Shown here piece by piece: positions 19,347 to 41,766 of a stretch of 45,817 nt of DNA. The translations under genes were made by a program, and so were the position numbers. The notes beneath the pieces are model-generated. The model saw nothing but the letters and a program-made list of their open reading frames with translations. It had not been told where the DNA came from and made no database searches. The stretch spans positions 1 to 45,817 of the forward strand of contig JAFSEF010000090.1 in the NCBI GenBank assembly GCA_017435865.1, given 5' to 3'. The stretch's first letter is position 1. The number at the start of each line of letters is the position of its first letter. Source of the stretch: Clostridia bacterium (lineage in GTDB: Bacteria > Bacillota > Clostridia > Oscillospirales > Acutalibacteraceae).

Positions 19347-21725
19347 TTATTTCTTTTTCTTTGCTGCTTTTTCAGCTTTGAGTTTTGCTGCGTATTCTTC
19401 ACTTGCGGCTTTTTCAGCGGCATCCTTTGCAAGACGGTCAGCATATTCCTTTTCGACACGTGCTTTGGATTCTTCATACTGTGCATAAATTTCATCGTAA
19501 TGACGGTAATTTTCCTGCTGAATAAGAAGCTTTTTCGCAGCCAGATAGGGCTTTGCGGCACGATTGTAAAGAGAATACTGTTTTTCTGCCCTTTTAATTT
19601 CAGCTTTGATTTCACTTCTTACACGTTTAAGAGAAGCGAGTTCTTCTTTTTTGGCAGCGGCAAGTTCGGAATCATTGGCTTCTCTTGCCTGCTTAAGAGC
19701 AGCAATGGCAGCTTTGATTTCAGTATCTTTTTCTGCTTCAAGAGCAAACAGTTTCTCATAGGAATCCATATCAAATTCACTGATACCATCGGGATAATAC
19801 TTTGCGATCAGCTTTTTGGCAACGGCAACACCGCGGACCTGTTCAATAGCTGCATTGCGGATTTCTTTTTCTTCCTGTGTTTTTTTCGGCAGCTTCTTTG
19901 CATCTGCAAGAGAACCGACATCAACCCCCGTAAAACCATTCAAACCGGCAGAAACCAGCTGCTTTGCAACGGCAACATCAGCTTTGCCCTGTGCAGATTC
20001 AAAACGGTTCATTTCACGCATGACAAACTGTGCAATTTCAATTTTTTCGTTGTCAGATTTCTTTTCTTTATAAGCGGCTTTTGCCTGTTTGTAAGCATCT
20101 TTGCCGTCTTTTTTTGCGGCTTTGACTTCCTTTTTGTTAAGAACATGAGGCGTTCTGTCAACATAACTCTTGGCTTCTTCAATGATTTCAATGGTTTCCA
20201 CAAGAGCAGCATCATTGAGAACATTGTTGCCGAAGTCTTCAAACATAGCACGGATTTTGAGCACCTGCACCATGGCTTTCTGCCGAAGTTCCGTCAGGTC
20301 ATAGAAGAAGAAAGGCAGAACATTGAGTGCAGCACCGATAACGGAAGCAACAACCATAACACTGCAGATGGAACGGAAATAGTCTGTGTTATAAAGCACA
20401 TCATATACGTTGGAATAACCGAGAGATGCGGCGACACTTTCGTTCAGACCGTAATGTTCCTGAATGCTCGGCAGAACAGAGCTTGTGATCATGGTGACAA
20501 TGCTGCCGATCAAACCGACGGCAACAAACATGCCGTCAATTCTTTCGCCCGTGATATACTGCTGATAGTCACGGATATCTGCATTCAGACTGGGAGTAAG
20601 AATATGACCGAGTTGCGTAGCCATGGTATTGACAAATACGCAGACAAGAAGCAACCAAATGATCTTGCTCATATCACCGTAGTTGATAATCGGCAACATC
20701 ACAAGAATAAACATGATGTTCAACAAATTCGAGAACACAAGCATATTCCGCTTACCGATGGCACGGATCATAAACGGTGCAAACATCATCGGCCACAGAG
20801 AAGCGTTACCCGAAATCAATGTGATGAGTGAATACTGTCCTGCTTCACAGGCATTCTGATAGTTATAAAGCCAGCCGATAATGTTGGCAAAGGAGTTTTC
20901 GAGGAAACCGAGCCAACCTGCAAGGGATATAATCCAGAAATACTTGTTTCTTGCAACAGCACGAAGTGCATCAATAAAACGCATGGTATGCACGTGCGTT
21001 TTTGCCTGCACGATTTTTTCTTCTGTGTTGACATAAATCAGGATGGACATCAACAGACCCAGAATGATAAACGCCGGATAGACAAGTCGCATAACACGCA
21101 GATCATACAGTTTGTTTTCACCTGTGATCAATCTTGCAAGCACGGGCAGGATTGCATTTGCGATGGTCGGTGCAAATGAGTCAATAATCGTCTTGATGGA
21201 GCAGACGTCACTGCGTTCAATGGTATTCGGAGAAAGAACATTCAGTATACTTTCATTTGCATCATAGAAGAAATTGTAAAAGAACTGGAATGCAATATTA
21301 AACAGCAACACAACGACACATTTCTGCCATTCGACCATGCTGTCATACGGCATCCAACAAAATCCGATTGCAAGCAATGCGGTCGGAATGCCCATTGTGA
21401 GAATGTAAGGACGATACTTACCTTTTTTACTGCGGGCACTGTCAATCAGATTCGCACGCAGCGTTGTCAGCGGAAATCCCGATGCAATTGCGATAACATA
21501 AATCAGATACAGCTTTGAAGGTGAAATACCGATGGTGTTACCGATCAGGGTATTACCGACATAAAGGATCATATTCTGCACACAGTAGGTAACAAATTTG
21601 ACACCCATGCTGCCCACTGACAAAGATACGATTTCTTTGAAGTTCATGTAGCGACCGTAAGGCGGCGTTTTCCAGTACAGACGCAGCATATCCAGTCCGT
21701 TTACGATTTTTTGTTTGACATTCAA
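19347..21725 (-). CDS. GPH/MelB-type sugar symporter with a long charged C-terminal tail
   Basis: The first 490 or so residues form a major-facilitator transporter of the glycoside-pentoside-hexuronide type, with about 12 helices and the family's Asp-rich inner loops (NLIDSARSKKGKYRPY, SLNADIRDYQQY). They are followed by about 300 residues of Lys/Glu/Ala-rich helical, coiled-coil-like sequence ending in AKKKK, which normal symporters of 450-500 residues lack. No stop or frameshift separates the two. The best start is TTG 21725, 8 nt after GGAGGG; another TTG six bases earlier is possible. It is divergent from the glycoside operon and is its likely importer. The tail's function is unknown. Confidence 0.85.
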   Translation of the reverse strand: MNVKQKIVNGLDMLRLYWKTPPYGRYMNFKEIVSLSVGSMGVKFVTYCVQNMILYVGNTLIGNTIGISPSKLYLIYVIAIASGFPLTTLRANLIDSARSKKGKYRPYILTMGIPTALLAIGFCWMPYDSMVEWQKCVVVLLFNIAFQFFYNFFYDANESILNVLSPNTIERSDVCSIKTIIDSFAPTIANAILPVLARLITGENKLYDLRVMRLVYPAFIILGLLMSILIYVNTEEKIVQAKTHVHTMRFIDALRAVARNKYFWIISLAGWLGFLENSFANIIGWLYNYQNACEAGQYSLITLISGNASLWPMMFAPFMIRAIGKRNMLVFSNLLNIMFILVMLPIINYGDMSKIIWLLLVCVFVNTMATQLGHILTPSLNADIRDYQQYITGERIDGMFVAVGLIGSIVTMITSSVLPSIQEHYGLNESVAASLGYSNVYDVLYNTDYFRSICSVMVVASVIGAALNVLPFFFYDLTELRQKAMVQVLKIRAMFEDFGNNVLNDAALVETIEIIEEAKSYVDRTPHVLNKKEVKAAKKDGKDAYKQAKAAYKEKKSDNEKIEIAQFVMREMNRFESAQGKADVAVAKQLVSAGLNGFTGVDVGSLADAKKLPKKTQEEKEIRNAAIEQVRGVAVAKKLIAKYYPDGISEFDMDSYEKLFALEAEKDTEIKAAIAALKQAREANDSELAAAKKEELASLKRVRSEIKAEIKRAEKQYSLYNRAAKPYLAAKKLLIQQENYRHYDEIYAQYEESKARVEKEYADRLAKDAAEKAASEEYAAKLKAEKAAKKKK

Positions 21726-21753
21726 GTTCAAATCCCTCCGTTACTTTTCTTTG

Positions 21754-21832
21754 CAAATGCAAAACACAGTTGTTGACAAATGCAAATGGCTCATTTATAA
21801 TTTAATATAACAAAAAAACAGATTAAACGCAA
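21754..21832. promoter_or_regulatory. Overlapping head-on promoters with direct-repeat operator
   Basis: The plus promoter is a perfect TTGACA (21773-21778), 17 bp, TATAAT (21796-21801). The minus promoter has TTGCGT (21827-21832), 17 bp, TATATT (21804-21809). The two -10 boxes are only 2 bp apart, so one polymerase would exclude the other. The direct repeat CAAATGCAAA occurs at 21754-21763 and 21777-21786, a 23-bp period, with the second copy over the plus -35. It probably binds a regulator that switches symporter and catabolic genes. Confidence 0.65.
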
Positions 21833-21869
21833 CAGCTTCTTCAATATTTGTGCAAACTAAACAATATAC

Positions 21870-21888
21870 GGTGTCATTTTTTGACACC
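21870..21888 (+). promoter_or_regulatory. Leader hairpin before the glycoside operon
   Basis: The perfect 7-bp stem GGTGTCA / TGACACC with a T5 loop lies 5 nt before the ribosome site GAGGGAG. It may shield the 5' end or modulate translation. Confidence 0.5.
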
Positions 21889-21907
21889 TGCAGAGGGAGA
21901 GATTTTT

Positions 21908-22486
21908 ATGGAAAACATTGAGTTGATGAAAAGAGCAAAAACATACATACAAGCCCTTGCAAACGGTACCGATCCTTTTACGGGAGAGGAAATTTCCGAT
22001 GACAGCGTCATCAACAATGTCCGCATGAGCCGCTGTTTTTTCTATGTAGCGGATATACTCGAAAAAGTCATTGCAAACGGTGGCGAAGTCAGCAAAACCT
22101 ATACCGCAAAACCTGCCGCTTACACACCGCTGACAGATGAAATAATCAACACGTTTTCATACAGCGACGATCCGATGGGAATCAACAACATCGTCAAAAC
22201 GCTGCGTGAAATGCTCGGAGAAAACCGCAAACCGCTTTCCGCCGTGCAAATTACAGCATGGTTGGTTAACGAGGGGTATCTGATCGAAAACATACGCGGC
22301 GGCAAACGCGAAAAAATTGCATCTGCAAAGGGAAACGCCCTCGGGATCACTGTCAAAGAGGGCACAAACATACAAACAGGTGTCCCCTACCGCATGAATT
22401 TGTATAACAGAAAAGCACAACAGTTTATTCTGCAATCGCACAACCGGATTCTCAAAGAGCTATCCGAAAGGGAGGAGAATACATGA
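21908..22486 (+). CDS. Conserved hypothetical protein, first gene of glycoside operon
   Basis: A 192-residue soluble protein whose family I do not recognise. The N-terminal half (MENIELMKRAKTYIQALA, GTDPFTGEEISDD, NNVRMSRCFFYVADIL) is helical and looks like a conserved domain. The C-terminal half (REMLGENRKPLSAVQI, LVNEGYL, then GKREKIASAKGNALGI) resembles a winged-helix-like 'LxxxG' segment and may bind nucleic acid. It could therefore be the operon's regulator, but that is a guess. ATG 21908 follows GAGGGAG. The stop overlaps the SDR start by 4 nt. Confidence 0.7.
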   Translation: MENIELMKRAKTYIQALANGTDPFTGEEISDDSVINNVRMSRCFFYVADILEKVIANGGEVSKTYTAKPAAYTPLTDEIINTFSYSDDPMGINNIVKTLREMLGENRKPLSAVQITAWLVNEGYLIENIRGGKREKIASAKGNALGITVKEGTNIQTGVPYRMNLYNRKAQQFILQSHNRILKELSEREENT

Positions 22487-23271
22487 AAGTTGCCATTGTA
22501 ACAGGCGGCAGCAGCGGCATCGGACTTGCCTGCTGTGAAAAGTTTTTGCAAAACGGATACAAAGTTTATGAGTACAGCCGTAAAAACGGCAGTGACAATA
22601 AAGATATCATCCACATCAAAGCCGATGTGACAGACGAACAGAGTGTTGAACAAGCCGTAAAAACCGTTTTTGAAGCAGAAGGAAGAATCGATATTCTTGT
22701 CAACAACGCAGGCTTCGGCATTGCAGGCAGCATTGAAGAAACCGCCCTTGCCGATGCCAAAAAGCAGTTTGATGTCAACTTTTTCGGCACAGTGCTGTGC
22801 TCACAAAAAGTGCTGCCGTATATGCGAAAGCAGGGCTTCGGCAGAATCGTGAACATCAGCAGCATGGCAGCACCTCTTGCCATCCCCTTTCAGGCCTTTT
22901 ATTCGGCAAGCAAGGCAGCGGTCAATTCACTGACTCTCTCGATGCAAAATGAAGTAAAGCCCTTCGGAATTACCGTCTGTGCGGTGATGCCGGGCGATGT
23001 AAAAACAGGATTCACCGCAGCAAGAGAAAAAAACAGTACCGATTCCGCTTACAAGGATGTGCTTGCTCGCAGTCTGTCCGTAATGGAGCATGACGAGCAA
23101 AACGGTATGCCTGCTGCAGCCATTGCAGATGCCGTTTACAAAGCTGCAACAACCAAAAATCCAAAACCACTGTCCACCAAAAGCACACAGTACCATCTGT
23201 TTGCCGTTCTTTCAAAACTTTTACCGACAAGCCTTGTCAATCGCATTGTCGGAATGATATATGCAAAATAA
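22483..23271 (+). CDS. Short-chain dehydrogenase/reductase (SDR)
   Basis: A 262-residue classical SDR. The cofactor motif TGGSSGIG is near residue 7, NNAG near 75, and the catalytic Ser-Tyr-Lys set is in NISSMAA and FYSASKAAV. The C-terminal VMPGDVKTGF follows the usual pattern. Such enzymes oxidise or reduce a hydroxyl group with NAD(P)H. Translational coupling on both sides (ATGA overlap upstream, 15 nt to the next gene) places it in the glycoside operon, where it may recycle cofactor or reduce a keto-sugar. Confidence 0.93.
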   Translation: MKVAIVTGGSSGIGLACCEKFLQNGYKVYEYSRKNGSDNKDIIHIKADVTDEQSVEQAVKTVFEAEGRIDILVNNAGFGIAGSIEETALADAKKQFDVNFFGTVLCSQKVLPYMRKQGFGRIVNISSMAAPLAIPFQAFYSASKAAVNSLTLSMQNEVKPFGITVCAVMPGDVKTGFTAAREKNSTDSAYKDVLARSLSVMEHDEQNGMPAAAIADAVYKAATTKNPKPLSTKSTQYHLFAVLSKLLPTSLVNRIVGMIYAK

Positions 23272-23286
23272 CAGGAGAAAGAAAAT

Positions 23287-25230
23287 ATGATTTTAAGAGC
23301 ACCAAGCAATCCGCTGATTACCGTAGATCCTTATTTTTCGGTCTGGAGTCCGTCCGATAAGCTGACCGACTCTGTCACCGTGCACTGGACAGGCAAGCCT
23401 AACACCATTGTGGGCACGGCTGAAATTGACGGCACCGTTTACCGTTTTCTCGGCAAGGAAAGCAATGAAGACGATTCCCCTGTCATGAAGCAGGTAAAAA
23501 GAGACTGCAACGCCCTTTCAACCACCTATGTTTTTGAAGAAGCCAACATCCGCCTGACTGCTGTTTTCACAAGCAGTCTACTGTTGGACGATCTGAAAAC
23601 CGCAAGCCGTCCCGTGAGCTACTTAAGAATCACCACTGAGCCGCTTGACGGTCAGGCACATTGCATCAAGGTTAAAATTGCAGCAAGTGAGGAGCTGTGT
23701 CTGAATTACAGAGGCAGCGAAGAAGTGATTGCCGACACCATGACATTCGACGGCATCTGTGCCGCAAAAATCGGCAGCACCACGCAGGATATTCTGTCTG
23801 TCTGCGGCGATGACCTTCGTATTGACTGGGGTTATTTTTACCTTTGCACGGATGCAGGCAACACATACACAGAAAAAAGAAAAGTTCCGTTTATGGACAA
23901 AATGCCCTGCGGGGACAGCGAAGAAATGACCTTTGTGTGCGCGGATGCAACCTTCTGCTCCGACAGTCAGGTCAGTGCACTGTTCGGATTTGCGTATGAC
24001 GACATCAGATCCATGCTCTATTTCGGCGATCAGCTTCCTTCTTTGTGGAATCACGACGGCAAAACCATTGAAACGGCCATCACCGAGGCCTTTGCCGATT
24101 ACGAAGAAGTGTATGAACGCTGCGAGGTCTTTTCTGACCGTCTGTTCATCGATGCCGTACGTGCAGGCGGTGAAAAATATGCGGAACTGCTCGAAATTGC
24201 CTACCGTCAGAGCATTGCGGCTCATAAAATCTGCGTGGACACAGACGGAGAAATTCTGTTTATCTCCAAGGAATGCTTCTCAAACGGTTGTGCGGCCACG
24301 GTGGACGTCAGCTATCCGTCCATTCCGCTGTTTTTGCTGTACAACCCCGAATTGGTACGCGGTATGATGCGTCCGATTTTCAAATATGCAAGAAGTGAGG
24401 GCTGGATTTTTGACTTTGCACCCCACGATGCAGGCTGCTATCCGCATGTCACGGGGCAGGTTTACGGCAGCAACGCACTCAAATATCAAATGCCCGTTGA
24501 GGAATGCGGCAACATGCTCGTCATGGCAACGGCTGTGACGCTTGCCGACGGCAATCTTGATTTCATCCGCGAAAATCTTGACCTGCTTGAAGCGTGGGTC
24601 AAATATCTTGAAGACAACGGCAGAGATCCTGAAAATCAGCTTTGCACCGACGACTTTGCAGGTCACCTTGCCCACAACTGCAACCTTTCCTTGAAAGCCA
24701 TCATGGGCATTACGGGACTCGGCATTCTCTACGGTCTGTTGGGTGACGAAGTGAAGAAGGCTGCAAAAATGAATCTTGCAAAAGAGCTTGCCGCAGACTG
24801 GGCAAAACGTGCTTCCAACGGTGACGGCAGCTACCGCCTTGCTTTTGACCGTCCCGACACATGGAGTATGAAGTACAACATCGTATGGGATAAACTCTGG
24901 GGTACAAATATTATGGACAAGGGTGTGATCGCATCCGAGTTTGCATCCTATGCAAAGCACGTCAATCCCTACGGCATGCCGCTTGACAACCGCGAAACCT
25001 ACACCAAGAGCGACTGGCTTGTATGGACGGCAACCCTTGCCAAGGACAGAGCCGACTTTGAAGCCTTTGTGGCTCCTCTGTGGGAGGCTTACAACCGTTC
25101 TCTTTCCCGCGTGCCGCTGACCGACTGGTATTTCACCGTCACCGCCGCAATGAGAGGATTCCAGCACCGTTCCGTGCAGGGCGGTCTGTTCATCAAATTA
25201 CTTGAATACAAAGGGCTGATGAAAATATGA
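23287..25230 (+). CDS. DUF4964/DUF4965/DUF1793 'glutaminase-like' protein
   Basis: A 647-residue protein with the domain order of fungal GtaA-type 'glutaminases'. The N-terminal region holds LRAPSNPLITVDPYFSVWS and VHWTGKPN (DUF4964-like). A central part follows (SYPSIPLFLLYNPELVRGMM, PHDAGCYPHVTGQ, MPVEECGNML, TDDFAGHLAHN; DUF4965-like). The C-terminal part is DUF1793-like (DNRETYTKSDWLVWTA). The helical toroid and conserved acids (Asp/Glu in EECGN, TDDFAGH) resemble glycoside hydrolase active sites. No signal peptide is present. Because the operon is otherwise about sugars, a glycosidase role deserves equal weight to amidase. It overlaps the next gene by 4 nt. Confidence 0.85.
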   Translation: MILRAPSNPLITVDPYFSVWSPSDKLTDSVTVHWTGKPNTIVGTAEIDGTVYRFLGKESNEDDSPVMKQVKRDCNALSTTYVFEEANIRLTAVFTSSLLLDDLKTASRPVSYLRITTEPLDGQAHCIKVKIAASEELCLNYRGSEEVIADTMTFDGICAAKIGSTTQDILSVCGDDLRIDWGYFYLCTDAGNTYTEKRKVPFMDKMPCGDSEEMTFVCADATFCSDSQVSALFGFAYDDIRSMLYFGDQLPSLWNHDGKTIETAITEAFADYEEVYERCEVFSDRLFIDAVRAGGEKYAELLEIAYRQSIAAHKICVDTDGEILFISKECFSNGCAATVDVSYPSIPLFLLYNPELVRGMMRPIFKYARSEGWIFDFAPHDAGCYPHVTGQVYGSNALKYQMPVEECGNMLVMATAVTLADGNLDFIRENLDLLEAWVKYLEDNGRDPENQLCTDDFAGHLAHNCNLSLKAIMGITGLGILYGLLGDEVKKAAKMNLAKELAADWAKRASNGDGSYRLAFDRPDTWSMKYNIVWDKLWGTNIMDKGVIASEFASYAKHVNPYGMPLDNRETYTKSDWLVWTATLAKDRADFEAFVAPLWEAYNRSLSRVPLTDWYFTVTAAMRGFQHRSVQGGLFIKLLEYKGLMKI

Positions 25231-26078
25231 TTCAACTTTGTGCCTTTGCCGACGAAGCCGACAAATGCTTTGACGGACAGGTCAGTGCATTAAAGGAAAA
25301 TAACATTTCCCTGCTTGAAATGCGAAAAATCGACGGCAACAATGCCGCGTTCATCCATATTGAAAAAGCAAAAGAATACAAAGAAAAGCTTGATTCCCAC
25401 GGCATTTCCGTGTGGTCCTTGGGTTCACCTATCTGCAAAGTCAGACAAGGTTTTGACCGTGCGGAATATGCAAAAAAAGTGGAGCACGCCTGCAAAGTTG
25501 CAAACGCACTGGGTGCAAAAAATATGCGTGTATTCAGCTTTTATCCGCAGTTTTTCCGCTTCAACAAAGAAAAAGTGGTCGAAGACCTGCGTTATTTCAA
25601 TTCCATAGCCGAGTCTTACGGCATCCGTTTTTGCTGTGAAAATGACACAGGGCTGTTCAACGCAACGGCTGAACGTTGTGCGTGGTTAATGCAGCAGCTC
25701 CCTGAACTCGGCTATATTTACGACCCTGCAAACTTCCGTGTCAGCGGTCAGAATTTTGAAGACACAAAGCAATTTTTACCCAAGGCGGATTATTTTCACC
25801 TCAAGGATGCCGTCGGCAAAAAAGTGGTGCCCGCAGGCTTCGGTGAGGGGCACATTGCAGACATTGTAAACAGTCTTGAAAGGGATGCCGTGTTCACAAT
25901 AGAGCCGCATCTGACCTTTTTCAGAGGCAGCAAGCAATACAATGCCGTGTTCGGCAATCAGTTTGATCTGAAGAGTGCAAGAGGAAGATTTGACTGTGCC
26001 GTGGCAGCTGCCAAAAAAGTGCTGACCGACTGCGGTTACACCGAAAACGGAACATGCTTTATCAAGGGAGAGAAATAA
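25227..26078 (+). CDS. Xylose-isomerase-like TIM-barrel protein (AP_endonuc_2)
   Basis: A 283-residue (beta/alpha)8 barrel of the sugar isomerase/epimerase superfamily. A likely metal site is visible in the family's order: Glu138 (CENDTG), Asp166 (YDPANF), His191 (YFHLKDA) and Glu226 (TIEPHL). Relatives act as ketose epimerases, inosose enzymes or, in the DgpBC/CarBC systems, as lyases that cleave 3-keto C-glycosides. Immediate coupling to a Gfo/Idh/MocA oxidoreductase (3-nt gap) is the pairing seen in those redox deglycosylation pathways. Which of these reactions it does is not readable from sequence. Confidence 0.9.
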   Translation: MIQLCAFADEADKCFDGQVSALKENNISLLEMRKIDGNNAAFIHIEKAKEYKEKLDSHGISVWSLGSPICKVRQGFDRAEYAKKVEHACKVANALGAKNMRVFSFYPQFFRFNKEKVVEDLRYFNSIAESYGIRFCCENDTGLFNATAERCAWLMQQLPELGYIYDPANFRVSGQNFEDTKQFLPKADYFHLKDAVGKKVVPAGFGEGHIADIVNSLERDAVFTIEPHLTFFRGSKQYNAVFGNQFDLKSARGRFDCAVAAAKKVLTDCGYTENGTCFIKGEK

Positions 26079-26081
26079 AAA

Positions 26082-27254
26082 ATGGCAAAACAGAAAGCAC
26101 GAATCGGCATCATCGGCTTCGGCGGTCAGGGCAGTGCGTATGTGCGTTTGCTCAAGGCAGGGCTCATTAAAAATGCCGAACTCGGTGCCGTTTGCGATAT
26201 TGACCAAAACAAACTCAACGCCCAATGCGAAAAATTCGGTATTACCGTGCCGAAATTCACAGACCATAACGAGCTGTTAAAAAGCGGAACGGTGGATGCC
26301 GTTGTGGTCACCACACCGCATTATTTTCATCCGCCCATTGTCATCGATGCACTCAACGCAGGCATTCACGCCATGAGCGACAAGCCTGCAGGCGTTTACA
26401 CCAAGCAGGTCAAAGAGATGATCGATGTTGCCGCACAGCATCCCGATGTGCTGTTTGCACTCATGCTCAACCAGCGTACCAACAAGGTCTACAACAGAAT
26501 GCGTGACATGATCCGGGAGGGTAAAATCGGTGAGATCAAGCGTGTGAACTGGCTGATTACCGACTGGTACCGCTCGCAGTCCTACTATGACGCATCCCCA
26601 TGGAGAGCCACATGGAAAGGTGAAGGCGGCGGCGTGCTGTTTAACCAGGCACCGCATCAGATCGACCTTTTGCAGTGGATTGTCGGCATGATGCCCGCCA
26701 AGCTGCAGGCACACTGTGCTTTCGGCAAATGGCACGATATTGAAACCGAAGACGATGTGACCGTGTACATGGAATTCCCAAACGGTGCTACGGGTGTGTT
26801 CATCACCGCAACCGCGGACTTCCCCGGCACAAACCGCCTCGAAATTCTCGGCACAAAGGGAAAGCTTGTGTGCACCAACGGCATGAAGCTTGAGGTCACT
26901 TATTCGAAGCAGGATGAACGCGAATTCAACCGCACCTACAAAAACGGCTTCGGCACACCGGGCAGTCAAAAGAAAGCACCTTACATCAACCCCGTTTCGG
27001 GACAGCATGTAACCATTCTCAACAACTTCGCAAATGCGGTGCTCGGCAAAGAAAAACTCTTTGTGCACGGCAGTGAGGGCTTAAACGGTGTGCAATTCAT
27101 GGATGCCTGCCTTTTAAGCGAATGGTTAAAATCTGAAATTACACTTCCCATTGACGACGAATTGTATTATAATGAATTGCAAAAACGCATTGCAACAAGC
27201 TCACTGCGTGAGAATGCCGGCAATGTCGTTCTCGATACCAAAGGAACTTATTAA
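26082..27254 (+). CDS. Gfo/Idh/MocA-family oxidoreductase
   Basis: A 390-residue NAD(P)-dependent dehydrogenase. The Rossmann motif IGIIGFGGQGSAY is near residue 8, and the acidic CDIDQNK favours NAD(H). The catalytic lysine is retained in a slightly altered motif, SDKPAGVY (usually EKP), and the active-site His is in FNQAPHQIDLLQW. The C-terminal domain has the usual substrate sheet (GTKGKLVCTNG). Within the operon it could oxidise a glycoside at C3, preparing it for elimination by the TIM-barrel protein. The upstream gap is 3 nt; the ribosome site GGGAGAG is inside the previous gene's end. Confidence 0.92.
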   Translation: MAKQKARIGIIGFGGQGSAYVRLLKAGLIKNAELGAVCDIDQNKLNAQCEKFGITVPKFTDHNELLKSGTVDAVVVTTPHYFHPPIVIDALNAGIHAMSDKPAGVYTKQVKEMIDVAAQHPDVLFALMLNQRTNKVYNRMRDMIREGKIGEIKRVNWLITDWYRSQSYYDASPWRATWKGEGGGVLFNQAPHQIDLLQWIVGMMPAKLQAHCAFGKWHDIETEDDVTVYMEFPNGATGVFITATADFPGTNRLEILGTKGKLVCTNGMKLEVTYSKQDEREFNRTYKNGFGTPGSQKKAPYINPVSGQHVTILNNFANAVLGKEKLFVHGSEGLNGVQFMDACLLSEWLKSEITLPIDDELYYNELQKRIATSSLRENAGNVVLDTKGTY

Positions 27255-27267
27255 GAGAGGTAACACA

Positions 27268-29076
27268 ATGGCACAACTTAAAATGTACAGATTTGCAAAC
27301 ACCCCCTATAAAGAAGCACCACTGCCCGAGGGCTACACCATCAGTGCGTATGAAACCGAAGCTGACAAAATGGCATGGGTGGAGTGCTGCAAAAAAGGTC
27401 TTGTTGCTGACGATGCGGATGAATCCGTTTTCGACAGCTGCATCAAAGACCATGACGACACCGTGCTTGAAAAGGACTGTCTGTTTTTAAATCACAACGG
27501 TGAGAGAGTCGGCACACTGACCGCCACGTTCCATCCCGAAACGCAGACGGGTGACTTCCACATGGTCGGCATCCGTGCCGATTACAGAGGAAAAGGACTC
27601 GGCAAATACCTGAATGCCTACAGTGCAAAAAAGATGGACGATGCAGGTGCAAAATGGTCGGTGCTGACCACGGACGAATGGCGTGTTGCCGCTGTCAAGA
27701 GTTATATTTCGGCAGGCTTCCGCCCTGTTTTCTACGATGAAAACATGCCCGAACGTTGGGAAATCATGCTCGACATTCTGGGCATTGACGAACTCGAAAT
27801 GTACAACGAGGACGGTACATTCAACCGTATGTTGCACCCTGTGAAAAAGGTAAAGATCGGTGTGCTCGGTGCACGCAGAGGCAAGAGCATGATCAACTAC
27901 TGCAAGGAAGCAGACAATGCCGTGCTTGTTGCCGTTTGCGACTGCTACAAGCCTGTTCTCGAAGAGGTCAAAGCCGATCTCAACAACGACGCAATCACCT
28001 ATTATGACAATTTTGAGGACTTCCTCAATCACGATATGGATGCAGTTGTGCTTGCAAACTATGCTAACGAGCACGCACCCTTTGCCATCCGCTGCATGGA
28101 AAAGGGTCTGCATGTCATCAGCGAGGTTCTGCCCGTGCAAACCATGAAAGAAGCAGTTGAGCTGATTGAAGCGGTCGAAAAGACAGGCAAGATTTATGCC
28201 TATGCCGAAAACTACTGCTACATGCCCGCACCCCGCAAAATGCGTCAGCTCTACCGTGACGGCGTTCTCGGTGAGTTCGAATACGGCGAGGGTGAATATG
28301 TGCACAACTGTGAACCCGGTTGGCCCGGCTACTCCTGCTGCGACCCGAACCACTGGCGAAACACCATGAGTGCATTCTATTACTGCACCCATTCCTTGGG
28401 TCCGCTGATTCACATCACAGGTCAGCGTCCTGTCAAGGTTACGGGCTTCGAGCTGCCGTTCAACGCAAGAATGGAAAGAATGGGCGCAAAAGCAGGTCCC
28501 ATGGGCATTGAAATGGTCACGCTTGAAAGCGGTGCGGTGGTCAAGAGCATCCACGGTGTCGGTCCGTCCAAGAACAGCATCTGGTACTCCATTTACGGCA
28601 GCAAGGGCAGAATGGAAAGTGCCCGTGAGGATGCCGAAAACGGCGGCACACAGACCCTTTATGTCAACTGCGATAACGAAGAGGGCGACAACGAATCCAC
28701 ACCCGTCAACACCCCGACCGCAGACCGCAACGCTTCTCGTGCCAACAATGCAGGACACGGCGGCAGTGACTACTACACCATGTTCAATTTCTGCGAAAAG
28801 ATCCGCAAGAGCCCCTTTGCAGACATCGTTGACGTTTATGAAGCCATGGATATGTTCCTGCCGGGTATGTTCGCTTATCGTTCGGTATTGAACGGCGGAA
28901 TCCCCATGGATATTCCGAATCTGCGTGAACCTGCAGAACGCGAAAAATGGCGTCATGACACCGCCTGCACCGATCCCCGCCTTGCAGGTGATCAGCTGCA
29001 GCCGAGTTACTCCAAGGGCAATCCCGAAATCGACCCCGCAGTTTACGAAAAACTCAGAGAAAAACTGAATAAATAA
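27268..29076 (+). CDS. Fusion of GNAT acetyltransferase and Gfo/Idh/MocA domain
   Basis: A 602-residue two-domain protein. Residues 1-180 are a GNAT N-acetyltransferase fold with the acetyl-CoA loop GIRADYRGKGLGKYL (101-115) preceded by HMV. Residues of about 195-600 are a Gfo/Idh/MocA domain starting KIGVLGARRGK. Two departures stand out. The nucleotide loop is poor in glycine, and the EKP motif is replaced by EVLP (286-289), so the usual catalytic Lys is absent. Glycosidase-type relatives such as GH109 also have EVP-like sequences there. His375 (YYCTHSLG) remains. The start is ATG 27268 (GAGAGG upstream), with no internal start signal or stop between domains. A role in an N-acyl-sugar pathway is possible. 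Confidence 0.85.
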   Translation: MAQLKMYRFANTPYKEAPLPEGYTISAYETEADKMAWVECCKKGLVADDADESVFDSCIKDHDDTVLEKDCLFLNHNGERVGTLTATFHPETQTGDFHMVGIRADYRGKGLGKYLNAYSAKKMDDAGAKWSVLTTDEWRVAAVKSYISAGFRPVFYDENMPERWEIMLDILGIDELEMYNEDGTFNRMLHPVKKVKIGVLGARRGKSMINYCKEADNAVLVAVCDCYKPVLEEVKADLNNDAITYYDNFEDFLNHDMDAVVLANYANEHAPFAIRCMEKGLHVISEVLPVQTMKEAVELIEAVEKTGKIYAYAENYCYMPAPRKMRQLYRDGVLGEFEYGEGEYVHNCEPGWPGYSCCDPNHWRNTMSAFYYCTHSLGPLIHITGQRPVKVTGFELPFNARMERMGAKAGPMGIEMVTLESGAVVKSIHGVGPSKNSIWYSIYGSKGRMESAREDAENGGTQTLYVNCDNEEGDNESTPVNTPTADRNASRANNAGHGGSDYYTMFNFCEKIRKSPFADIVDVYEAMDMFLPGMFAYRSVLNGGIPMDIPNLREPAEREKWRHDTACTDPRLAGDQLQPSYSKGNPEIDPAVYEKLREKLNK

Positions 29077-29088
29077 AGAGGTGTGTTT

Positions 29089-30651
29089 ATGAACAACACA
29101 TACAAGTATGTAGCACTCATCGGTATTGACGGCATGGGTAATTTCAACCAACATACCGAAACCCCCTGCATGGATGCCATTTTTGCAAACGGTGCCGTCA
29201 CTTACGATGCACTTTCCCTCGACCCGACAATCAGTGCACAGAACTGGGGTGCAATGCTGCTTGGTGCCATGCCCGCCGTGCACGGACTTACCAACAGCAT
29301 AGTCAGTGCACACCCTTACACAAACGATGCACTGCCTTCCGTTTTCAAACGCATCCGTGAAAAATATCCCGATGCCTATCTTGCCGCTTGCAACAACTGG
29401 AATCCCATTAACATCGGCATCATTGAAGACGGCATCGGTGTTGACAAGCACACCGCAGCCAATGACCCCGAACTTACCCCCATTATTCTCGACTGCGTTG
29501 CAAAAAAACCGAAATATCTGTTCGTGCAGTTTGACGACGTGGACGGAGCAGGCCACGGTTGCGGCTACGGCAACGAAGGACATCTGAAAAAAATCACCGA
29601 GATCGATGCCCTTGTCGGACAGGTGTATGAAGCCTACAAAAAAGCGGGTATTCTCGACGAGACCCTGTTCATCGTCACCGCTGACCATGGCGGTTGGATA
29701 CGCGGTCACGGCGGCTACACGGACGGCGAAAAGTATGTTTATTTTGCTGCCACAGGCAAAGGAATCGAAAAAAGTCAGGTCGGCTACGCAACCACAAAGG
29801 ACTACGCTGCCATCGTGCTGTATGCACTCGGAATTGACGTGCCCGATTATGATGCCAACGGCTTTTCGGGTCAGATTCCCGAGGGTCTGTTCCCCGAATA
29901 CAAGAAACCTTATTTCCGTCCCGAGGTGCGTTCGGTTGAATACACACCCTTCCCGACCCCTGCCATTGAATCAAGAGAAGGCCTGGGGGTATTCATCGAC
30001 AAAAACCGACTTCGTCTTGCCCTGTTTTTAGACAACGACCTGACCGATGCAACGGCTGAATATGATGAAACGGAAATCGGTCTTTGCAAGTATTATTCGG
30101 GCGGTGTGTACGGCTCGAGAGGCGAATTCGGTACCACAGGCTGTGCGGTTTACGAAGACTTCCGCTTCGGTGACAATGACTTCACCATTGCCGCATGGCT
30201 TCGCATTGACCGTTCGCTGATTTACGAAACCGACATCTGTGCCACCAAAGGCGGCTGCGGCAAAAACCGCAAGGACAAGGGATTCGTTGTTGTCATGCGC
30301 AACAATGACACCTTTATCAACATCGGCATTGGTGACGATGATGACGATTTCATCACCGCATTCCCTGAAGACATCAAGGACGGCTGGATTCACATGGCAC
30401 TCTCCGTGGACCGCAAAAACGGAGAAATCAAGTGCTATTATAACTTCAGACTCGCCCATGCAGGCCGCTTTGACAAAAACCTGCTGACCGACATTGATGC
30501 ACTTCCCCTTACCGTCGGCAACGATGCACTGCATTCGTTCAACAACGAAAACAACACCATTTTCAACATGGATGATTTTCTTGTTTTCGACGGCACGTTC
30601 AGTGACAAGGATGCAAAGCACCTTGCCGATTATTACAAATTCACTATCTGA
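29089..30651 (+). CDS. Alkaline-phosphatase-superfamily enzyme with C-terminal LamG-like domain
   Basis: A 520-residue protein. Residues of about 5-260 are an alkaline phosphatase/phosphodiesterase/sulfatase core: GIDGMGNF (first metal Asp), nucleophile region DPTISAQNWG (Thr or Ser), FDDVDGAGHGCGYG (metal Asp/His) and TADHGGWIRGHGG (metal Asp/His, then His). Residues of about 350-520 look like a concanavalin/LamG sandwich (DFTIAAWLRIDR, IHMALSVDRKNGEI, MDDFLVFDGTFS), a fold usually found on secreted proteins. No signal peptide is present, which is odd. ATG 29089 lies after AGAGG. It is the last gene of the operon. A substrate such as a phosphorylated or sulfated sugar is plausible. Confidence 0.85.
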   Translation: MNNTYKYVALIGIDGMGNFNQHTETPCMDAIFANGAVTYDALSLDPTISAQNWGAMLLGAMPAVHGLTNSIVSAHPYTNDALPSVFKRIREKYPDAYLAACNNWNPINIGIIEDGIGVDKHTAANDPELTPIILDCVAKKPKYLFVQFDDVDGAGHGCGYGNEGHLKKITEIDALVGQVYEAYKKAGILDETLFIVTADHGGWIRGHGGYTDGEKYVYFAATGKGIEKSQVGYATTKDYAAIVLYALGIDVPDYDANGFSGQIPEGLFPEYKKPYFRPEVRSVEYTPFPTPAIESREGLGVFIDKNRLRLALFLDNDLTDATAEYDETEIGLCKYYSGGVYGSRGEFGTTGCAVYEDFRFGDNDFTIAAWLRIDRSLIYETDICATKGGCGKNRKDKGFVVVMRNNDTFINIGIGDDDDDFITAFPEDIKDGWIHMALSVDRKNGEIKCYYNFRLAHAGRFDKNLLTDIDALPLTVGNDALHSFNNENNTIFNMDDFLVFDGTFSDKDAKHLADYYKFTI

Positions 30652-30665
30652 TTGACACAGAAAAA

Positions 30666-30693
30666 CCGCCCGACAGACTGCTCCGTCGGGCGG
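30666..30693 (+). terminator. Terminator of the glycoside operon
   Basis: The 9-bp GC-rich stem CCGCCCGAC (30666-30674) / GTCGGGCGG (30685-30693) is followed by a moderately T-rich tail. Confidence 0.8.
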
Positions 30694-30707
30694 CATTTAT
30701 TTACATC

Positions 30708-31130
30708 TTATTCAGCAACTGAATAGGTATAAACCGTATCGTATTTCTGATCCGCACACATATACAGGGTCGGATTTTTCAGGTCATACACCGATGACCA
30801 TTGGGTTGAATAAATTCTTCCCTCATCATCCGGCTCTGTTTTGTCAAAAGATACTGCCTGCAACAAATCCATGCCTTCTTCGACACGCAGAACAGCTTTT
30901 TTCCCGGTCAGAGTCTTGATAAGAATTTCATAGCGGTCCTCCCCTTGTTTTTCATATTCAAAGGGTACATCATGGAGATAAAAATTCGTAGCGGCAATGA
31001 TTCCGTTTTCCTTTTCCGTCACGATCATTTCATTTTCAACATACGAAACAACCACACTGTTACCTGCAGCAATGTCCGTTGTTCCCCCTGAAAAGCAATC
31101 CTGATTCTTTGCGATTTCATGCTCAATGCA
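30708..31130 (-). pseudogene. C-terminal remnant of a C45 / choloylglycine-hydrolase-like amidohydrolase
   Basis: The readable frame gives GGTTDIAAGNSVVVSYVENE, an ATNFYLHDV strand, RYEIL and a final TQWSSVYDLKNPTLYMC segment ending in YTYSVAE. This matches the last half of Ntn-type linear amide C-N hydrolases (C45 peptidase / bile-salt-hydrolase-like), where TQWS-x-VYDL is typical. The N-terminal half with the essential Cys nucleophile is missing. The upstream part of the frame overlaps the promoter and ribosome site of the plus-strand GH3 gene. No ribosome site for the fragment was found. I judge it a decaying remnant, although a short expressed protein cannot be excluded. Confidence 0.55.
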
Positions 31131-31139
31131 AAAAACTGC

Positions 31140-31168
31140 TTGACGAAAGATAACATAAGCTTTAAAAT
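31140..31168 (+). promoter_or_regulatory. Promoter of the GH3-nudC operon
   Basis: The -35 TTGACG (31140-31145) and -10 TAAAAT (31163-31168) have a 17-bp spacer, with the start codon 27 nt further on. Confidence 0.6.
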
Positions 31169-31194
31169 AATAAAAAACCATAAAGGACGGAAAG

Positions 31195-33579
31195 ATGCAA
31201 ATGATCGACAAATACAATCGTTTCAGATATCAACCCTGCCTGCCCCTTGGAAAAGACGGCAGACGCGTGACAGCATCCGAAGAGCACATCACTCTTTCCA
31301 AAAAAGCGGCAACCGAAGGCATTGTTCTGCTGAAAAATAAAAACAACACCCTGCCTCTGCAAAAAGGAGAAACCGTTGCCCTGTTCGGAAAAGCCACCAT
31401 TGAATACATAAAGGGCGGTGGCGGCAGCGGTGACGTACACTGTCCGTATATCCGCAATATCGCAGACGGATTTGCCGCCAAGGAAGATGAATACAAGGTT
31501 AATGTTTACAAACCTCTTGTTGAATTTTACAAGGATTATGTCCGCAAGGAAAGTGTCAACGTGCTGACACAGGAGCAGATCAATGCCCGTTGGGACATTG
31601 TCAACAACATGGAATTCTGCCAGAAGCGTGACGACATGACCTATGACACATTTGCCGCCATGCACGTAGTGGAAGCCGAGGTGCCCGAAGAACTGATCGT
31701 GGCTTCATCTGAAAACGCAGACACGGCCATTATCACCCTGAGCCGTTTTTCGGCAGAAGGCGTTGACAGAAGACCGCAGGGCGGTGACTATTATCTGTCC
31801 GACCTTGAGAAAAACCTCATTGACCGCTGTTGTGCACTGTTCAAAAAGGTCATCATTGTCATCAATTCCGGTGCCACGATCGACTGCGAATACTTTGCCG
31901 AAAACGATAAAATCGGTGCTGTTCTGTTTGCATGGCAGGGCGGTATGGAAGGCGGCAGTGCACTTGCCGACGTGATGTGCGGTGACGAAAATCCGTCGGG
32001 CAAAATGGCAGACACCATTGCAAAAAGCTATGATGTCTACCCCACCAAGGAAGACTTCTGGGAATGCTTTGACCATGTGGATTATTCGGACGATATTTAT
32101 GTCGGCTACCGTTATTTTGAAACCGTGCCCGGTGCAAAAGAGCAGGTGCGTTATCCCTTCGGCTACGGCCTTTCTTACACCTCTTTTGCTCTTTCCGACC
32201 TGCTTGTGTTTGAACACAACGACAAAATTCACACCGTAATAAATGTAAAAAACACAGGCGACAAAGCAGGTAAAGAAGTGGTGCAGGTATATTTCAGTGC
32301 ACCGCAGGGACTTTTGGGCAAGCCTGCAAAGCAGCTGTCCGCATTCGGCAAAACCAAGCTTCTCAGCCCCGGTGAAAGCGAAACACTGATGCTGTCGTTT
32401 GCCGTTGCGGACATGGCATCGTTTGACGACCTCGGCAAAATCAAAAAATCCGCTTATGTGCTCGAAAAGGGCGACTATACTTTCCATGTCGGCACATCCG
32501 TGCGTGATACACAGCAGGCTGATTTCACATACACACGCAAAGAAGACACCGTCACCGCACAATGCACCGACTGGTGCCGTCCGTTTAAGCTCGCAAAGAG
32601 AATGCTTGCTGACGGCAGCTTTGAAGCACTTCCCATGGGCGAAGAAAGCTACCGCTACGGTGAAGTTAAACCCTCGGGTGCAACCGTTCCTGTCGAAACA
32701 CAGATCTTTGACAATGTCGGCAGCACGGTCACCATGGATGAATTTGTATCGCAGCTGACAATTGACGAATTGTGTTACTTGGTCGGCGGTCAGGCCCCCA
32801 CGGGCGTTGCAAACACAGGCTGTTTCGGCGGTCTTGAACGGCTTTCCATTCCTGCCGTTCCCACGGCAGACGGCCCTGCAGGACTTCGTCTTGAAATCAA
32901 AACAGGCATCCCCACCACCGCATGGCCGTGTGCAACACTTCTTGCCTGTACATGGAACACTGACCTCATCGAGCAGGTCGGTGCCGGCGGCGGTGCCGAA
33001 CTCAGAGAAAACAACATCGGTGTGTGGCTGGCACCTGCACTCAACATTCACCGCGATCCCCTTTGCGGCAGAAACTTTGAATATTACGCGGAAGATCCGC
33101 TGCTTGCAGGCAAATGTGCCGCAGCATCAGTAAGAGGAATTCAGTCGCAGAAGGCAGCCGTTTCCATCAAGCATTTTGCCTGCAACAACAAGGAAGCCAA
33201 CCGTTTTGCAAGTGACTCCCGTCTGTCTGAAAGAGCACTGCGTGAAATTTACCTCAGAGCATTTGAAATCTGTGTCAAGGAAGCAGATCCGTGGACACTG
33301 ATGTCCTCTTACAACCTCATCAACGGTCTGCACACAAGCGAAAGCTGGGAGCTGCTGACCGGTATTCTGCGTAATGAATGGGGCTTCAATGGCATGGTCG
33401 TGACCGACTGGGGTGTCAAAAACAGACCCGTTGTGGAAGTAAAAGCAGGCAACGACATGAAGATGCACTGCGGCTACCCCGATGAACTCAAAGCTGCTTA
33501 CGAAGCAGGCGAGCTGACCCGTGCAGAACTTGAACTGTGTGTCAGCAGAATCCTCGATATGTTCACAAAGCTGATATGA
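31195..33579 (+). CDS. Glycoside hydrolase family 3 with reversed domain order
   Basis: A 794-residue exo-acting beta-glycosidase, probably a beta-glucosidase. The parts appear in swapped order. The alpha/beta sandwich (EGIVLLKNKNNTLPL, VVINSG region, FGYGLSYTSF) and fibronectin III-like domain come first (about 30-440), and the catalytic TIM barrel comes second (about 510-794). The barrel shows VPTADGPAG, LAPALNIHRDPLCGRNFEYY, SIKHFACNN and the nucleophile Asp738 in VVTDWG. This reversed order is known from some Ruminococcus albus and Butyrivibrio enzymes. No signal peptide is present, so it acts on imported oligosaccharides. ATG 31195 follows AAAGGA. It overlaps nudC by 4 nt. Confidence 0.95.
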   Translation: MQMIDKYNRFRYQPCLPLGKDGRRVTASEEHITLSKKAATEGIVLLKNKNNTLPLQKGETVALFGKATIEYIKGGGGSGDVHCPYIRNIADGFAAKEDEYKVNVYKPLVEFYKDYVRKESVNVLTQEQINARWDIVNNMEFCQKRDDMTYDTFAAMHVVEAEVPEELIVASSENADTAIITLSRFSAEGVDRRPQGGDYYLSDLEKNLIDRCCALFKKVIIVINSGATIDCEYFAENDKIGAVLFAWQGGMEGGSALADVMCGDENPSGKMADTIAKSYDVYPTKEDFWECFDHVDYSDDIYVGYRYFETVPGAKEQVRYPFGYGLSYTSFALSDLLVFEHNDKIHTVINVKNTGDKAGKEVVQVYFSAPQGLLGKPAKQLSAFGKTKLLSPGESETLMLSFAVADMASFDDLGKIKKSAYVLEKGDYTFHVGTSVRDTQQADFTYTRKEDTVTAQCTDWCRPFKLAKRMLADGSFEALPMGEESYRYGEVKPSGATVPVETQIFDNVGSTVTMDEFVSQLTIDELCYLVGGQAPTGVANTGCFGGLERLSIPAVPTADGPAGLRLEIKTGIPTTAWPCATLLACTWNTDLIEQVGAGGGAELRENNIGVWLAPALNIHRDPLCGRNFEYYAEDPLLAGKCAAASVRGIQSQKAAVSIKHFACNNKEANRFASDSRLSERALREIYLRAFEICVKEADPWTLMSSYNLINGLHTSESWELLTGILRNEWGFNGMVVTDWGVKNRPVVEVKAGNDMKMHCGYPDELKAAYEAGELTRAELELCVSRILDMFTKLI

Positions 33580-34473: not shown

Positions 34474-36138
34474 ATGAAAAAAGTACTCTCTGTTATGTTG
34501 GCAATTCTTATGCTGTTCAGCCTTTGTCTTCCCTGTTTTGCAGCAGTCAAGGATGAAGATGTCAGCGTCAATGCAAGCAAAAGCCAATATCCGATCATCC
34601 GCATTCTCGGTGATGGCGAACCGCTGTATGATGCCGAGGGAAATCGTTTGTTCCATCTGCGCACGGACCTTCTTGAAGGCGGCGGAGACTCTGCAACCGC
34701 CGAAGAGGATGACGGCGATGATATTTATGATTCACTCGCAAACATTCTGATGCCCTTCCTCAAGGAGGGTCTGCTGTTCAACAACTGGGAGCCTTACTGC
34801 GATGCTCTTGAAGAAGAAATTGCAGACCTGACAGGCAATGCAAGGCTGGATGCAAACGGCAATGCCCCCGAGGGTACAGGTCTTTCGGCTGAAAAACGCG
34901 AGTACATGGCAACAGCAGCCACCAAAAACCAGGGCAAAAAAGGCTACTTCGCAATCAATGACTACCGTTTCTGGTATGACTGGAGACTTGATCCCATTGA
35001 AACGGCTGCTAAGCTGCATGAATACATTCAGCAGGTCAAAGCGATCACCGGCAAAGACAAGGTCTGCATTCTTGCAAGCTGCGTCGGCACGATCGTCACA
35101 ACCACTTATGTCGGCATTTACGGTGTCGAGGACATTCACGGCATCGGCTACACGGGTGCAATCGTCAAGGGTGCCGAGATTCTCAGCGAAGCGATCAGCG
35201 GCAAGTTTGACACCGACAGCGAAGCAATCGGCAGAGTGCTTGATGATTGTGACTATCTTGGTTTCTTTAACCTTGACGAATTTCTTGACACCACCCTCGA
35301 CCTTGCGTTGCAGTCGGGCATTATCGACAGCGTTGTCGGAACCATCCGTCTGACCCTTTATGACAAGCTCGTCAAGGGAGTTACCAGTGCACTTGCACTT
35401 TCCACCTTCTACACCTTCCCGAGCTATTGGGCAGCCATTGCCGAACAGGATTATGAAGATGCACTTGTGCATGTGTTCGGCGAGGAAGGCAGTGCAAAAC
35501 GCACCGAATATGCAGGGCTTATCGAAAAAATCGAAAACTACAACACCCTGATCCGTCCAAACATTGATGACATTCTGTTGAGCATCGGCGAAGGCGGTGC
35601 AAACTTTGCAGCAATTGCAAAATACGGCTTCCAGATGATTCCCATCTGCAAGTCCCGCGAAGAACTGTCCGACCAGTATGTTTCGGTCAAAAGAGCAGGC
35701 TTCAATGCCACGACTGCCAACATTTATGACACTTTAAGCGACGATTATATTGCACAGCAGACCGAAAAAGGCCTGGAAAGATACATTTCTCCCGACAAAA
35801 AGATCGATGCATCCACCTGCCTGTATCCCGATTCCACATGGTTTGTCAAGAATTCGAGCCATTCCCAATACACAAAGGTTGAAACCAAGCTGCTGTATGA
35901 TGTAATTTCCGCTGAAACGCAGCTGACCGTCAACGATTACTACGACTACACGCAGTTCATGGTTTACGACTATGACACAACCGAAATGCATGCCATGACC
36001 GAAGAAAACTGCAACACCGAGCAGTGGCTTGAAGACAAACCCGTAACCGGCATCAAAGGACTGATTCAAAAAATCACCAACTTCTTCAAAACACTCATCA
36101 ACTGGTTCAAGCTTGCATTTGAAAAACTGACCGCATAA
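34474..36138 (+). CDS. Secreted LCAT-like alpha/beta hydrolase with Cys at the nucleophile elbow
   Basis: A 554-residue exported protein. The signal peptide is MKKVLSVMLAILMLFSLCLP followed by CFAA. The core resembles lecithin:cholesterol acyltransferase-type lipases: WYDWRLDPIE (168-177), then a helix to YIQQVKAITGKDKVCIL, then the nucleophile elbow A201-S-C-V-G205. In the family this is GHSxG; here Cys203 occupies the Ser position. The expected distal Asp/His cannot be placed with certainty. A C-terminal amphipathic helix (LINWFKLAFEKLTA) may contact membrane or wall. ATG 34474 was chosen over an upstream ATG because only it gives the signal peptide directly and has AAGGGG at the right distance. 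Confidence 0.7.
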   Translation: MKKVLSVMLAILMLFSLCLPCFAAVKDEDVSVNASKSQYPIIRILGDGEPLYDAEGNRLFHLRTDLLEGGGDSATAEEDDGDDIYDSLANILMPFLKEGLLFNNWEPYCDALEEEIADLTGNARLDANGNAPEGTGLSAEKREYMATAATKNQGKKGYFAINDYRFWYDWRLDPIETAAKLHEYIQQVKAITGKDKVCILASCVGTIVTTTYVGIYGVEDIHGIGYTGAIVKGAEILSEAISGKFDTDSEAIGRVLDDCDYLGFFNLDEFLDTTLDLALQSGIIDSVVGTIRLTLYDKLVKGVTSALALSTFYTFPSYWAAIAEQDYEDALVHVFGEEGSAKRTEYAGLIEKIENYNTLIRPNIDDILLSIGEGGANFAAIAKYGFQMIPICKSREELSDQYVSVKRAGFNATTANIYDTLSDDYIAQQTEKGLERYISPDKKIDASTCLYPDSTWFVKNSSHSQYTKVETKLLYDVISAETQLTVNDYYDYTQFMVYDYDTTEMHAMTEENCNTEQWLEDKPVTGIKGLIQKITNFFKTLINWFKLAFEKLTA

Positions 36139-37194: not shown

Positions 37195-37206
37195 TGCAAT
37201 CTCCTT

Positions 37207-40744: not shown

Positions 40745-40745
40745 A

Positions 40746-41765: not shown

Positions 41766-41766
41766 T

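Follow-up and report, generated by a model that had tools for sequence, protein, structure and literature searches.

The 45,817-nt contig JAFSEF010000090.1 of an uncultured gut Clostridia bacterium (assembly GCA_017435865.1; Oscillospirales, Acutalibacteraceae), analysed here over its full length and referred to as the window, carries at 21908-30651 seven open reading frames that lie on the same strand with gaps or overlaps of at most 15 nt and look like one operon (Table 1). The source is a draft genome of 3.1 Mb in 133 contigs, 84.8% complete. An earlier reading of the letters alone (the sequence-only reading) had described this tight packing, had named the protein domains, had noticed no signal peptides, and had proposed a system that cleaves glycosides by oxidation and elimination. 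The packing is as described, and Pfam returns the named domains, namely adh_short, DUF4964 with DUF5127 and GtaA_6_Hairpin, AP_endonuc_2, two GFO_IDH_MocA, Acetyltransf_1, Phosphodiest and Laminin_G_3; none of the seven N-termini is signal-like by hydropathy, a crude test. Position 21754, where that reading let the feature begin, belongs to the upstream region and lies outside any gene, and the start of GNAT-Gfo2 is the ATG at 27268, the listed TTG start at 27151 being too early. The long antisense open reading frames of the region are beaten by the operon genes on codon usage in a simple gene caller trained on the operon genes and other genes of the window.

Table 1. The operon, its signals and its neighbours in the window
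Feature	Position	Strand	Basis
Operon promoter TTGACA-17-TATAAT	21773-21801	+	12/12 consensus; kept upstream of the operon in 4/4 species
g1, 192 aa, family-less, optional member	21908-22486	+	Pfam: nothing above cut-off
SDR-family NAD(P) oxidoreductase (SDR)	22483-23271	+	Pfam adh_short 2.6e-54; kept in 4/4 species
GtaA: DUF4964-DUF5127-GtaA_6_Hairpin protein, likely cytoplasmic glycoside hydrolase	23287-25230	+	Pfam GtaA 5.4e-126
TIM: AP_endonuc_2 TIM barrel with E138, D166, H191, E226	25227-26078	+	Pfam; alignment
Gfo1: P2B11-type (glucuronide) 3-dehydrogenase homologue	26082-27254	+	8tdi E=8e-94
GNAT-Gfo2: GNAT acetyltransferase fused to GH109-like Gfo/Idh/MocA domain	27268-29076	+	Pfam; GH109 profile matches
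Phos-LamG (Phos): alkaline-phosphatase-superfamily phosphodiesterase with C-terminal LamG-like domain	29083-30651	+	Phosphodiest 3.8e-18, Laminin_G_3 1.3e-9
Strong hairpin, terminator closing the operon	30665-30694	.	13 pairs (- strand scan); shorter + strand match 30678-30693
GH3 glycosidase, separate unit, downstream	31195-33579	+	kept near the operon, 4/4 species
Divergent GPH/MFS_2 symporter, long C-terminal extension	19347-21731	-	Pfam

Relatives were sought by scanning GTDB species genomes with the TIM alignment, the TIM loci counted below being the best 80 of 558 relatives, and the genes around them were searched by tblastn (E 1e-10), at which weaker neighbours may escape; searches in the window's family and class covered 200 and 391 genomes, respectively, each sampled from a larger group. 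Three of the loci (L113, L114 and L115), which come from metagenome-assembled Clostridia/Oscillospiraceae and include two labelled as goat caecum samples, hold SDR, GtaA, TIM, Gfo1, GNAT-Gfo2 and Phos with conserved order and identities of 74-95%, a unit conserved beyond chance but narrowly distributed. The GH3 gene also follows the operon in all three. The first gene, g1, is carried by the window, L114 and L115 and is missing from L113, where the conserved promoter sits directly before SDR. This promoter is the sole 12/12 match in the scan; promoter-like sites as a whole (14 versus 8.5 in shuffles, standard deviation 3.4) and terminator-like sites (19 versus 13.3, standard deviation 4.3) are barely above chance.

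Gfo1 has its best solved relative in 8tdi, the P2B11 Glucuronide-3-dehydrogenase (residues 4-372 of 390; 43-44% identity), far ahead of the second-best structure at 1.8e-34 (3q2i, which we take to be WlbA, a UDP-uronate C3-dehydrogenase). An alignment was built from 103 of 118 open reading frames (more than 200 bits to 8tdi, 340-420 aa), the window and 8tdi, and in it Gfo1 keeps all 59 residues, Lys101 and His192 included, at positions where the 104 other homologues show conservation of at least 97%, and differs at six positions conserved at 90% or more. A midpoint-rooted tree of 80 of the 105 aligned rows (loci from L113 on, window and 8tdi) groups the four window-type species with L116 and L117 at support 100/100, and places Gfo1 on the side of a 97/96-supported branch that comprises 29 rows under this root; hexuronate-linked loci contribute 12 of these. 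Because Gfo1 is a homologue of 8tdi that keeps 59 of 59 conserved residues, C3-oxidative processing of a uronide appears to be the best reading of this protein.

The pairing of Gfo1 with TIM is widespread and not special to the window operon: 75 of the 80 loci have a P2B11-type Gfo gene no more than 3 kb from TIM, and two of the five exceptions end less than 350 bases from TIM. In three family genomes (L106, L107 and L108; domains checked in L106) TIM and Gfo form one protein of 672-678 aa. A TIM barrel of a second, lyase type (c2, as distinct from the c1 type of the window) accompanies 27 of the 80 loci, its HxH motif being present in 27 of 27, and UxaC, UxuA, KDPG aldolase or KDG kinase are found in 20; among the 46 loci whose flanks extend for at least 4 kb in both directions the counts are 44 for Gfo, 19 for the c2 lyase and 14 for the uronate genes. 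A full hexuronate cluster is present in L100, with the order UxaC-UxuA-TIM-SDR-TIM-TIM-Gfo-Gfo-KDPG aldolase-KDG kinase by Pfam. The fused TIM-Gfo gene of L106 (8475-10493) stands beside homologues of KDG kinase and KDPG aldolase, and in L116, L117 and L119 a second, divergent TIM-Gfo pair is transcribed away from the window-like TIM. An alternative is that TIM and Gfo1 constitute a uronate or ketose isomerising module of hexuronate catabolism, which would oxidise, epimerise or rearrange, and reduce its substrate with no glycosidic cleavage at all. We consider this rather unlikely: the nearest solved Gfo is annotated as a dehydrogenase of a glucuronide, that is, of a glycoside, the HxH lyase joins the pair in the 27 sister loci just mentioned, and among the TIM barrels of L100 it is the c8 kind that matches epimerase models, whereas the c1 kind matches none.

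The TIM alignment was entered by 75 of the 80 loci (without L119, L162, L165, L183 and L186, mostly partial matches), four of which were then removed because of their length or reading frame (L151, L152, L167 and L187). The metal set Glu138, Asp166, His191 and Glu226, which the sequence-only reading had called intact, is invariant in the 72 aligned sequences. The eliminases of the CGE/OGE kind have a catalytic His (His134/His143; PMC10628242) two residues past the first metal ligand, a position that is Asp140 here and Glu or Asp in 72 of 72 sequences, and that aligns with the second His of HxH in the c2 TIMs. When the TIM profile of 72 sequences was compared with solved structures up to E=10, neither 8bvk nor 8tcd was matched; a c2 TIM, by contrast, matched Alistipes 3-keto-glucopyranoside lyase structures (by their titles; 8tcd) at 1.1e-17 and AtOGE 8bvk at 1.5e-13. 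The structure of TIM is predicted with a pLDDT (predicted local distance difference test) of 95, and none of the DgpB, DgpC and CGE structures is among the matches listed for its fold, which proves nothing. Four residues are specific to the TIM of the window clade, C137, T141, N145 and V172; the first and third replace His137 and Gly145, which are kept by all 68 other aligned relatives.

These results bear on the core of the earlier proposal, in which Gfo1 and TIM would work as a self-contained deglycosylase of C-glycosides like DgpABC, Gfo1 oxidising the sugar and TIM eliminating the aglycone. A Gfo protein and a metal-binding TIM barrel with its ligands in place do share the operon, and Gfo1 and Gfo2 each match DgpA-type structures weakly; however, the catalytic His of the eliminases is replaced, the solved eliminases escape the TIM profile, the lyase TIM of the sister clusters is absent here, and for Gfo1 the DgpA structures rank far under 8tdi. 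TIM was thus rejected as a bond-cleaving eliminase of the DgpBC type, and the DgpABC-like scheme seems improbable to us. What survives of the sequence-only reading is oxidative glycoside processing, to which the closeness of Gfo1 to 8tdi, the proximity of Gfo and TIM and their fusions all point, and what falls is the eliminase. Because the eliminase His is missing, TIM would most likely hydrate or rearrange a keto or enone intermediate rather than break the bond.

The second Gfo/Idh/MocA domain of the operon is of a different kind. Its N-terminal neighbour in the same chain matches Acetyltransf_1 (PF00583) with 34.7 bits (cut-off 20.7) and contains RGKGLGKYL, RxxGxG being the acetyl-CoA loop motif of GNAT acetyltransferases. 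The Gfo2 part has no lysine of the EKP motif, usual in Gfo proteins, and reads SEVLP instead. Its profile spans the whole GH109 domain, matching 2ixa at 1.2e-30 and 6t2b at 2.6e-25, the next match being at 9.8e-14. In an alignment of the window, L113-L115 and 16 hand-picked fusion loci, all 20 sequences share Y345, H376 and H498 (in a numbering that starts one codon ahead of the ATG); these residues align with positions 201, 234 and 379 of 6t2b, which at a constant offset of 25 are Tyr226, His259 and His404 of AmGH109A, and are also aligned to 2ixa. PMC10755693 gives catalytic roles to these three residues of AmGH109A. A comparison of the oxidoreductases with GH109, as the sequence-only reading had suggested, was therefore right for Gfo2, which appears GH109-like, and its fusion to a GNAT domain suggests an enzyme that would acetylate and then cleave.

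Homologues (E 1e-20) of TIM occur in 74 of the 200 family genomes, of the fusion or any of its parts in 39, of GtaA in 25 and of Phos in 16. Whole or near-whole fusions with no stop were found at 14 places in 13 of these genomes, and variants also exist: a divergent fusion (37%) in G057, the two parts fused in reversed order in L048 (9962-11776), and GNAT and Gfo2 as adjoining genes in L047 (8160-11298). In the class (E 1e-60), 46 of the 391 genomes gave a match, one of them being the window's own; nearly all matches in the other 45 cover the Gfo2 part only, and a single match over both parts has an internal stop. The fusion would therefore be largely a feature of the window's family in these samples.

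Less can be said of the remaining members. All three domains of GtaA (DUF4964, DUF5127 and GtaA_6_Hairpin) score above the Pfam cut-offs. In Phos, D16, T49, D154, H158, D201, H202 and H209 are invariant in four distinct sequences, a usable open reading frame being available in 4 of 10 loci with the window's own copy among them; these are presumably the metal ligands and the nucleophile of the alkaline-phosphatase superfamily. SDR has only a generic family match in NCBIfam.

Outside the four species the members are mostly found apart. Among 20 stretches around homologues of the fusion in the family, the full set appears only in the sister species L034 (same contig as L114), and 20 stretches around homologues of GtaA (15) and Phos (5) contain no other operon member except a P2B11-type Gfo in L213 (2495-3673, minus strand; 585 bits), three genes from the GtaA homologue; neither TIM kind is among the genes called in that stretch. 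In L156 (Erysipelotrichaceae) the order is esterase, TIM, Gfo1, Gfo, GtaA (37% identical), an unknown gene, ABC and a metallophosphoesterase, and together with L213 this would be a second hint from outside that GtaA and Gfo belong together. No shared genomic context of GtaA, the fusion or Phos emerged elsewhere in these 20 and 20 stretches, and the neighbours of ten fusions, by their Pfam names, are mixed (MFS_2, metallophosphoesterase, GH31, GH92, polysaccharide flippase, S8 protease and others). Because the stretches around GtaA, the fusion and Phos elsewhere mostly lack other operon members, the operon is, as judged from gene content, a composite of modules mostly found apart.

Taken together, the data favour, with moderate confidence, an operon that would be centred on oxidation-based cleavage and would dismantle an imported glycoside in the cytoplasm; this glycoside probably bears a hexuronic acid and may also bear an amino sugar. 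Gfo1, by its family, would oxidise the C3 hydroxyl of the uronide with NAD+, and the 3-keto sugar would pass to TIM for the hydration or rearrangement proposed above. The elimination that breaks the bond may be carried out by a lyase-type TIM encoded elsewhere or by the altered TIM itself: the genome has three TIMs with HxH (L230, L231 and L232) that are unlinked to the window, one of them with a Gfo neighbour, as well as UxaC, UxuA, and a cluster of UxuA, SDR, KDPG aldolase and KDG kinase. Because c2 TIMs and uronate genes lie elsewhere in the same genome, we infer that a complete cleavage route from scattered genes is possible, the released uronate entering the glucuronate route through these relatives of UxaC, UxuA, KDG kinase and KDPG aldolase. 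In GNAT-Gfo2, the GNAT domain would N-acetylate a free amino sugar and the GH109-like domain, whose catalytic residues are in place, would cleave it in an NAD+-dependent manner. GtaA and the downstream GH3, acting as ordinary hydrolases, may release other sugars, the phosphodiesterase may remove a phosphate diester, and SDR may reduce or oxidise the released sugar. A bolder version, which we regard as doubtful and put forward tentatively, is that the 602-aa fusion is a one-polypeptide redox glycosidase coupling GNAT acetylation to transient oxidation by NAD+, that the changes in TIM, the partner of the uronide 3-dehydrogenase, from His137 to Cys and from Gly145 to Asn have adapted it to another keto-sugar, and that the operon takes apart in the cytoplasm a glycan containing uronic acid, an amino sugar and a phosphodiester, partly by redox cleavage and partly by hydrolysis.

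Several observations weigh against this interpretation. Neither the window nor L113-L115 contains a c2 TIM, and UxaC, UxuA, KDPG aldolase and KDG kinase are unmatched in L113-L115 (E 1e-10). No c2 TIM is seen in 53 of the 80 TIM loci, some of them on short contigs, and therefore a division of labour between a lyase and a hydratase is not general or fixed. The loss of His137 and Gly145 in the window clade could mean that the activity of TIM has changed or has been lost, and among the matches listed in the structure comparison its fold is as near to epimerases and IolE as to the hydratase. The full set has been seen in only four closely related species, and in the remaining stretches examined GtaA, the fusion and Phos stand with no other member, so that joint action on one substrate is only presumed. 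Finally, Gfo1 scores 47.4 and 38.2 bits with the NCBIfam glycoside/disaccharide 3-dehydrogenases BT_2158 and BT_2159 (cut-offs 750 and 650, respectively), and its top NCBIfam model is inositol 2-dehydrogenase with 118.6 bits (cut-off 355). This last match, together with the likeness of the TIM fold to IolE and also to IolI, would agree with breakdown of inositol, Gfo1 being the inositol dehydrogenase (IolG) and TIM an inosose dehydratase or isomerase. We hold this to be very improbable, since the score is far under the cut-off for IolG, the solved inositol dehydrogenases reach 4e-23 or weaker against Gfo1, to which 8tdi is much closer, TIM matches no IolE family in NCBIfam, and hexuronate genes stand beside the relatives in 20 of 80 loci, no search having been aimed at inositol genes.

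If the favoured reading of a cytoplasmic, oxidation-based operon holds, its interest lies in a chemistry that in gut bacteria has been characterised only recently. The dehydrogenase of the P2B11 type is widely paired with the c1 TIM, and a clade in which the active site of that TIM has changed would be a natural test of its part. The fusion of a GH109-like domain with an acetyltransferase could explain how free amino sugars become cleavable, and the annotation of genes labelled merely "oxidoreductase" or "sugar phosphate isomerase" would be aided.

Some features around the operon were considered and set aside. A palindrome, GGTGTCA-N5-TGACACC at 21870-21888, is unique in the genome and was examined as an operator, but it is not conserved in L113-L115 and is therefore taken as chance. 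The divergent GPH symporter noted in the sequence-only reading is present, but has no homologue in the stretches beside the operon in L113-L115 and was rejected as the transporter of the operon. This symporter has a charged C-terminal extension of about 300 residues, and an 806-aa GPH relative of it (51%) lies a few genes away from a GtaA homologue in L207. Downstream of the operon, 30708-31181 (minus strand) is the C-terminal remnant of a CBAH/AAT-like (C45) amide hydrolase, at whose site L113 and L114 (the same as L034) have a 358-aa gene; 34474-36138 (plus strand) encodes a 554-aa protein without a Pfam match, a 45% homologue of which adjoins the divergent TIM-Gfo genes in L119. The minus-strand run at 36184-42972 comprises genes for an alpha-L-fucosidase, an Amidohydro_2 protein, an altronate/galactarate-type dehydratase, a mannitol-dehydrogenase-like protein and a zinc alcohol dehydrogenase, and one without clear family, and looks like a non-phosphorylating route for L-fucose or uronate.

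As the sequence-only reading had supposed, no described system with the exact seven-gene set was found in a literature search, most subscription-journal papers and a key 2024 paper being outside its reach. Nasseri et al. (Nature, 2024) reportedly described a glycan pathway of oxidation, elimination, hydration and reduction, with P2B11. The P2B11 glucuronide-3-dehydrogenase (8tdi) resembles the system of the window in the full-length homology of Gfo1, in its active-site residues and in the keto-sugar-type TIM barrel that adjoins it, whereas the window operon has no lyase-type TIM, has an altered TIM motif, and adds GtaA, GNAT-Gfo2, SDR and the phosphodiesterase. Hexuronate clusters like that of L100, in related gut Clostridia, share with the window a c1-type TIM and a Gfo of the same family; they differ in that the c2 lyase and the uronate-catabolism genes lie outside the window operon, with relatives elsewhere in the genome. 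The Agrobacterium tumefaciens AtOGE/AtHYD operon (PMC10628242) differs from the window operon in that the latter has one TIM and no eliminase of the OGE type. The GH109 alpha-N-acetylgalactosaminidases (2ixa, 6t2b), which are NAD+-dependent, are like Gfo2 over the whole domain, in having no EKP lysine and in the equivalents of Tyr226, His259 and the His404 of GGHGG, and are unlike it in that the Gfo2 protein has an N-terminal GNAT domain. The closest parallel to such a coupling is RmNag, a fungal beta-N-acetylglucosaminidase of GH3 with a glucosamine N-acetyltransferase region, which according to PMC4680927 cleaves (GlcN)2 only with acetyl-CoA; both would join acetyltransferase and hexosaminidase in one chain, acetylating and then cleaving, although the glycosidase family and mechanism of RmNag are others and the activity of GNAT-Gfo2 is predicted. 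For GtaA, proteins with a domain set of its kind (DUF4964-5127-4965-1793) are those of Phanerochaete chrysosporium and Streptomyces misionensis (WP_074995790); according to PMC9668830, a glycosidase probe labelled the fungal protein, which has a secretion signal where GtaA shows none, and the bacterial homologue had weak beta-galactosidase activity and no detected glutaminase activity. Set against these systems, the core chemistry, in which Gfo1 would oxidise a uronide at C3, is of a known kind, and the exact gene set, the apparently remodelled TIM and the predicted fusion of GNAT with a GH109-like domain look new.

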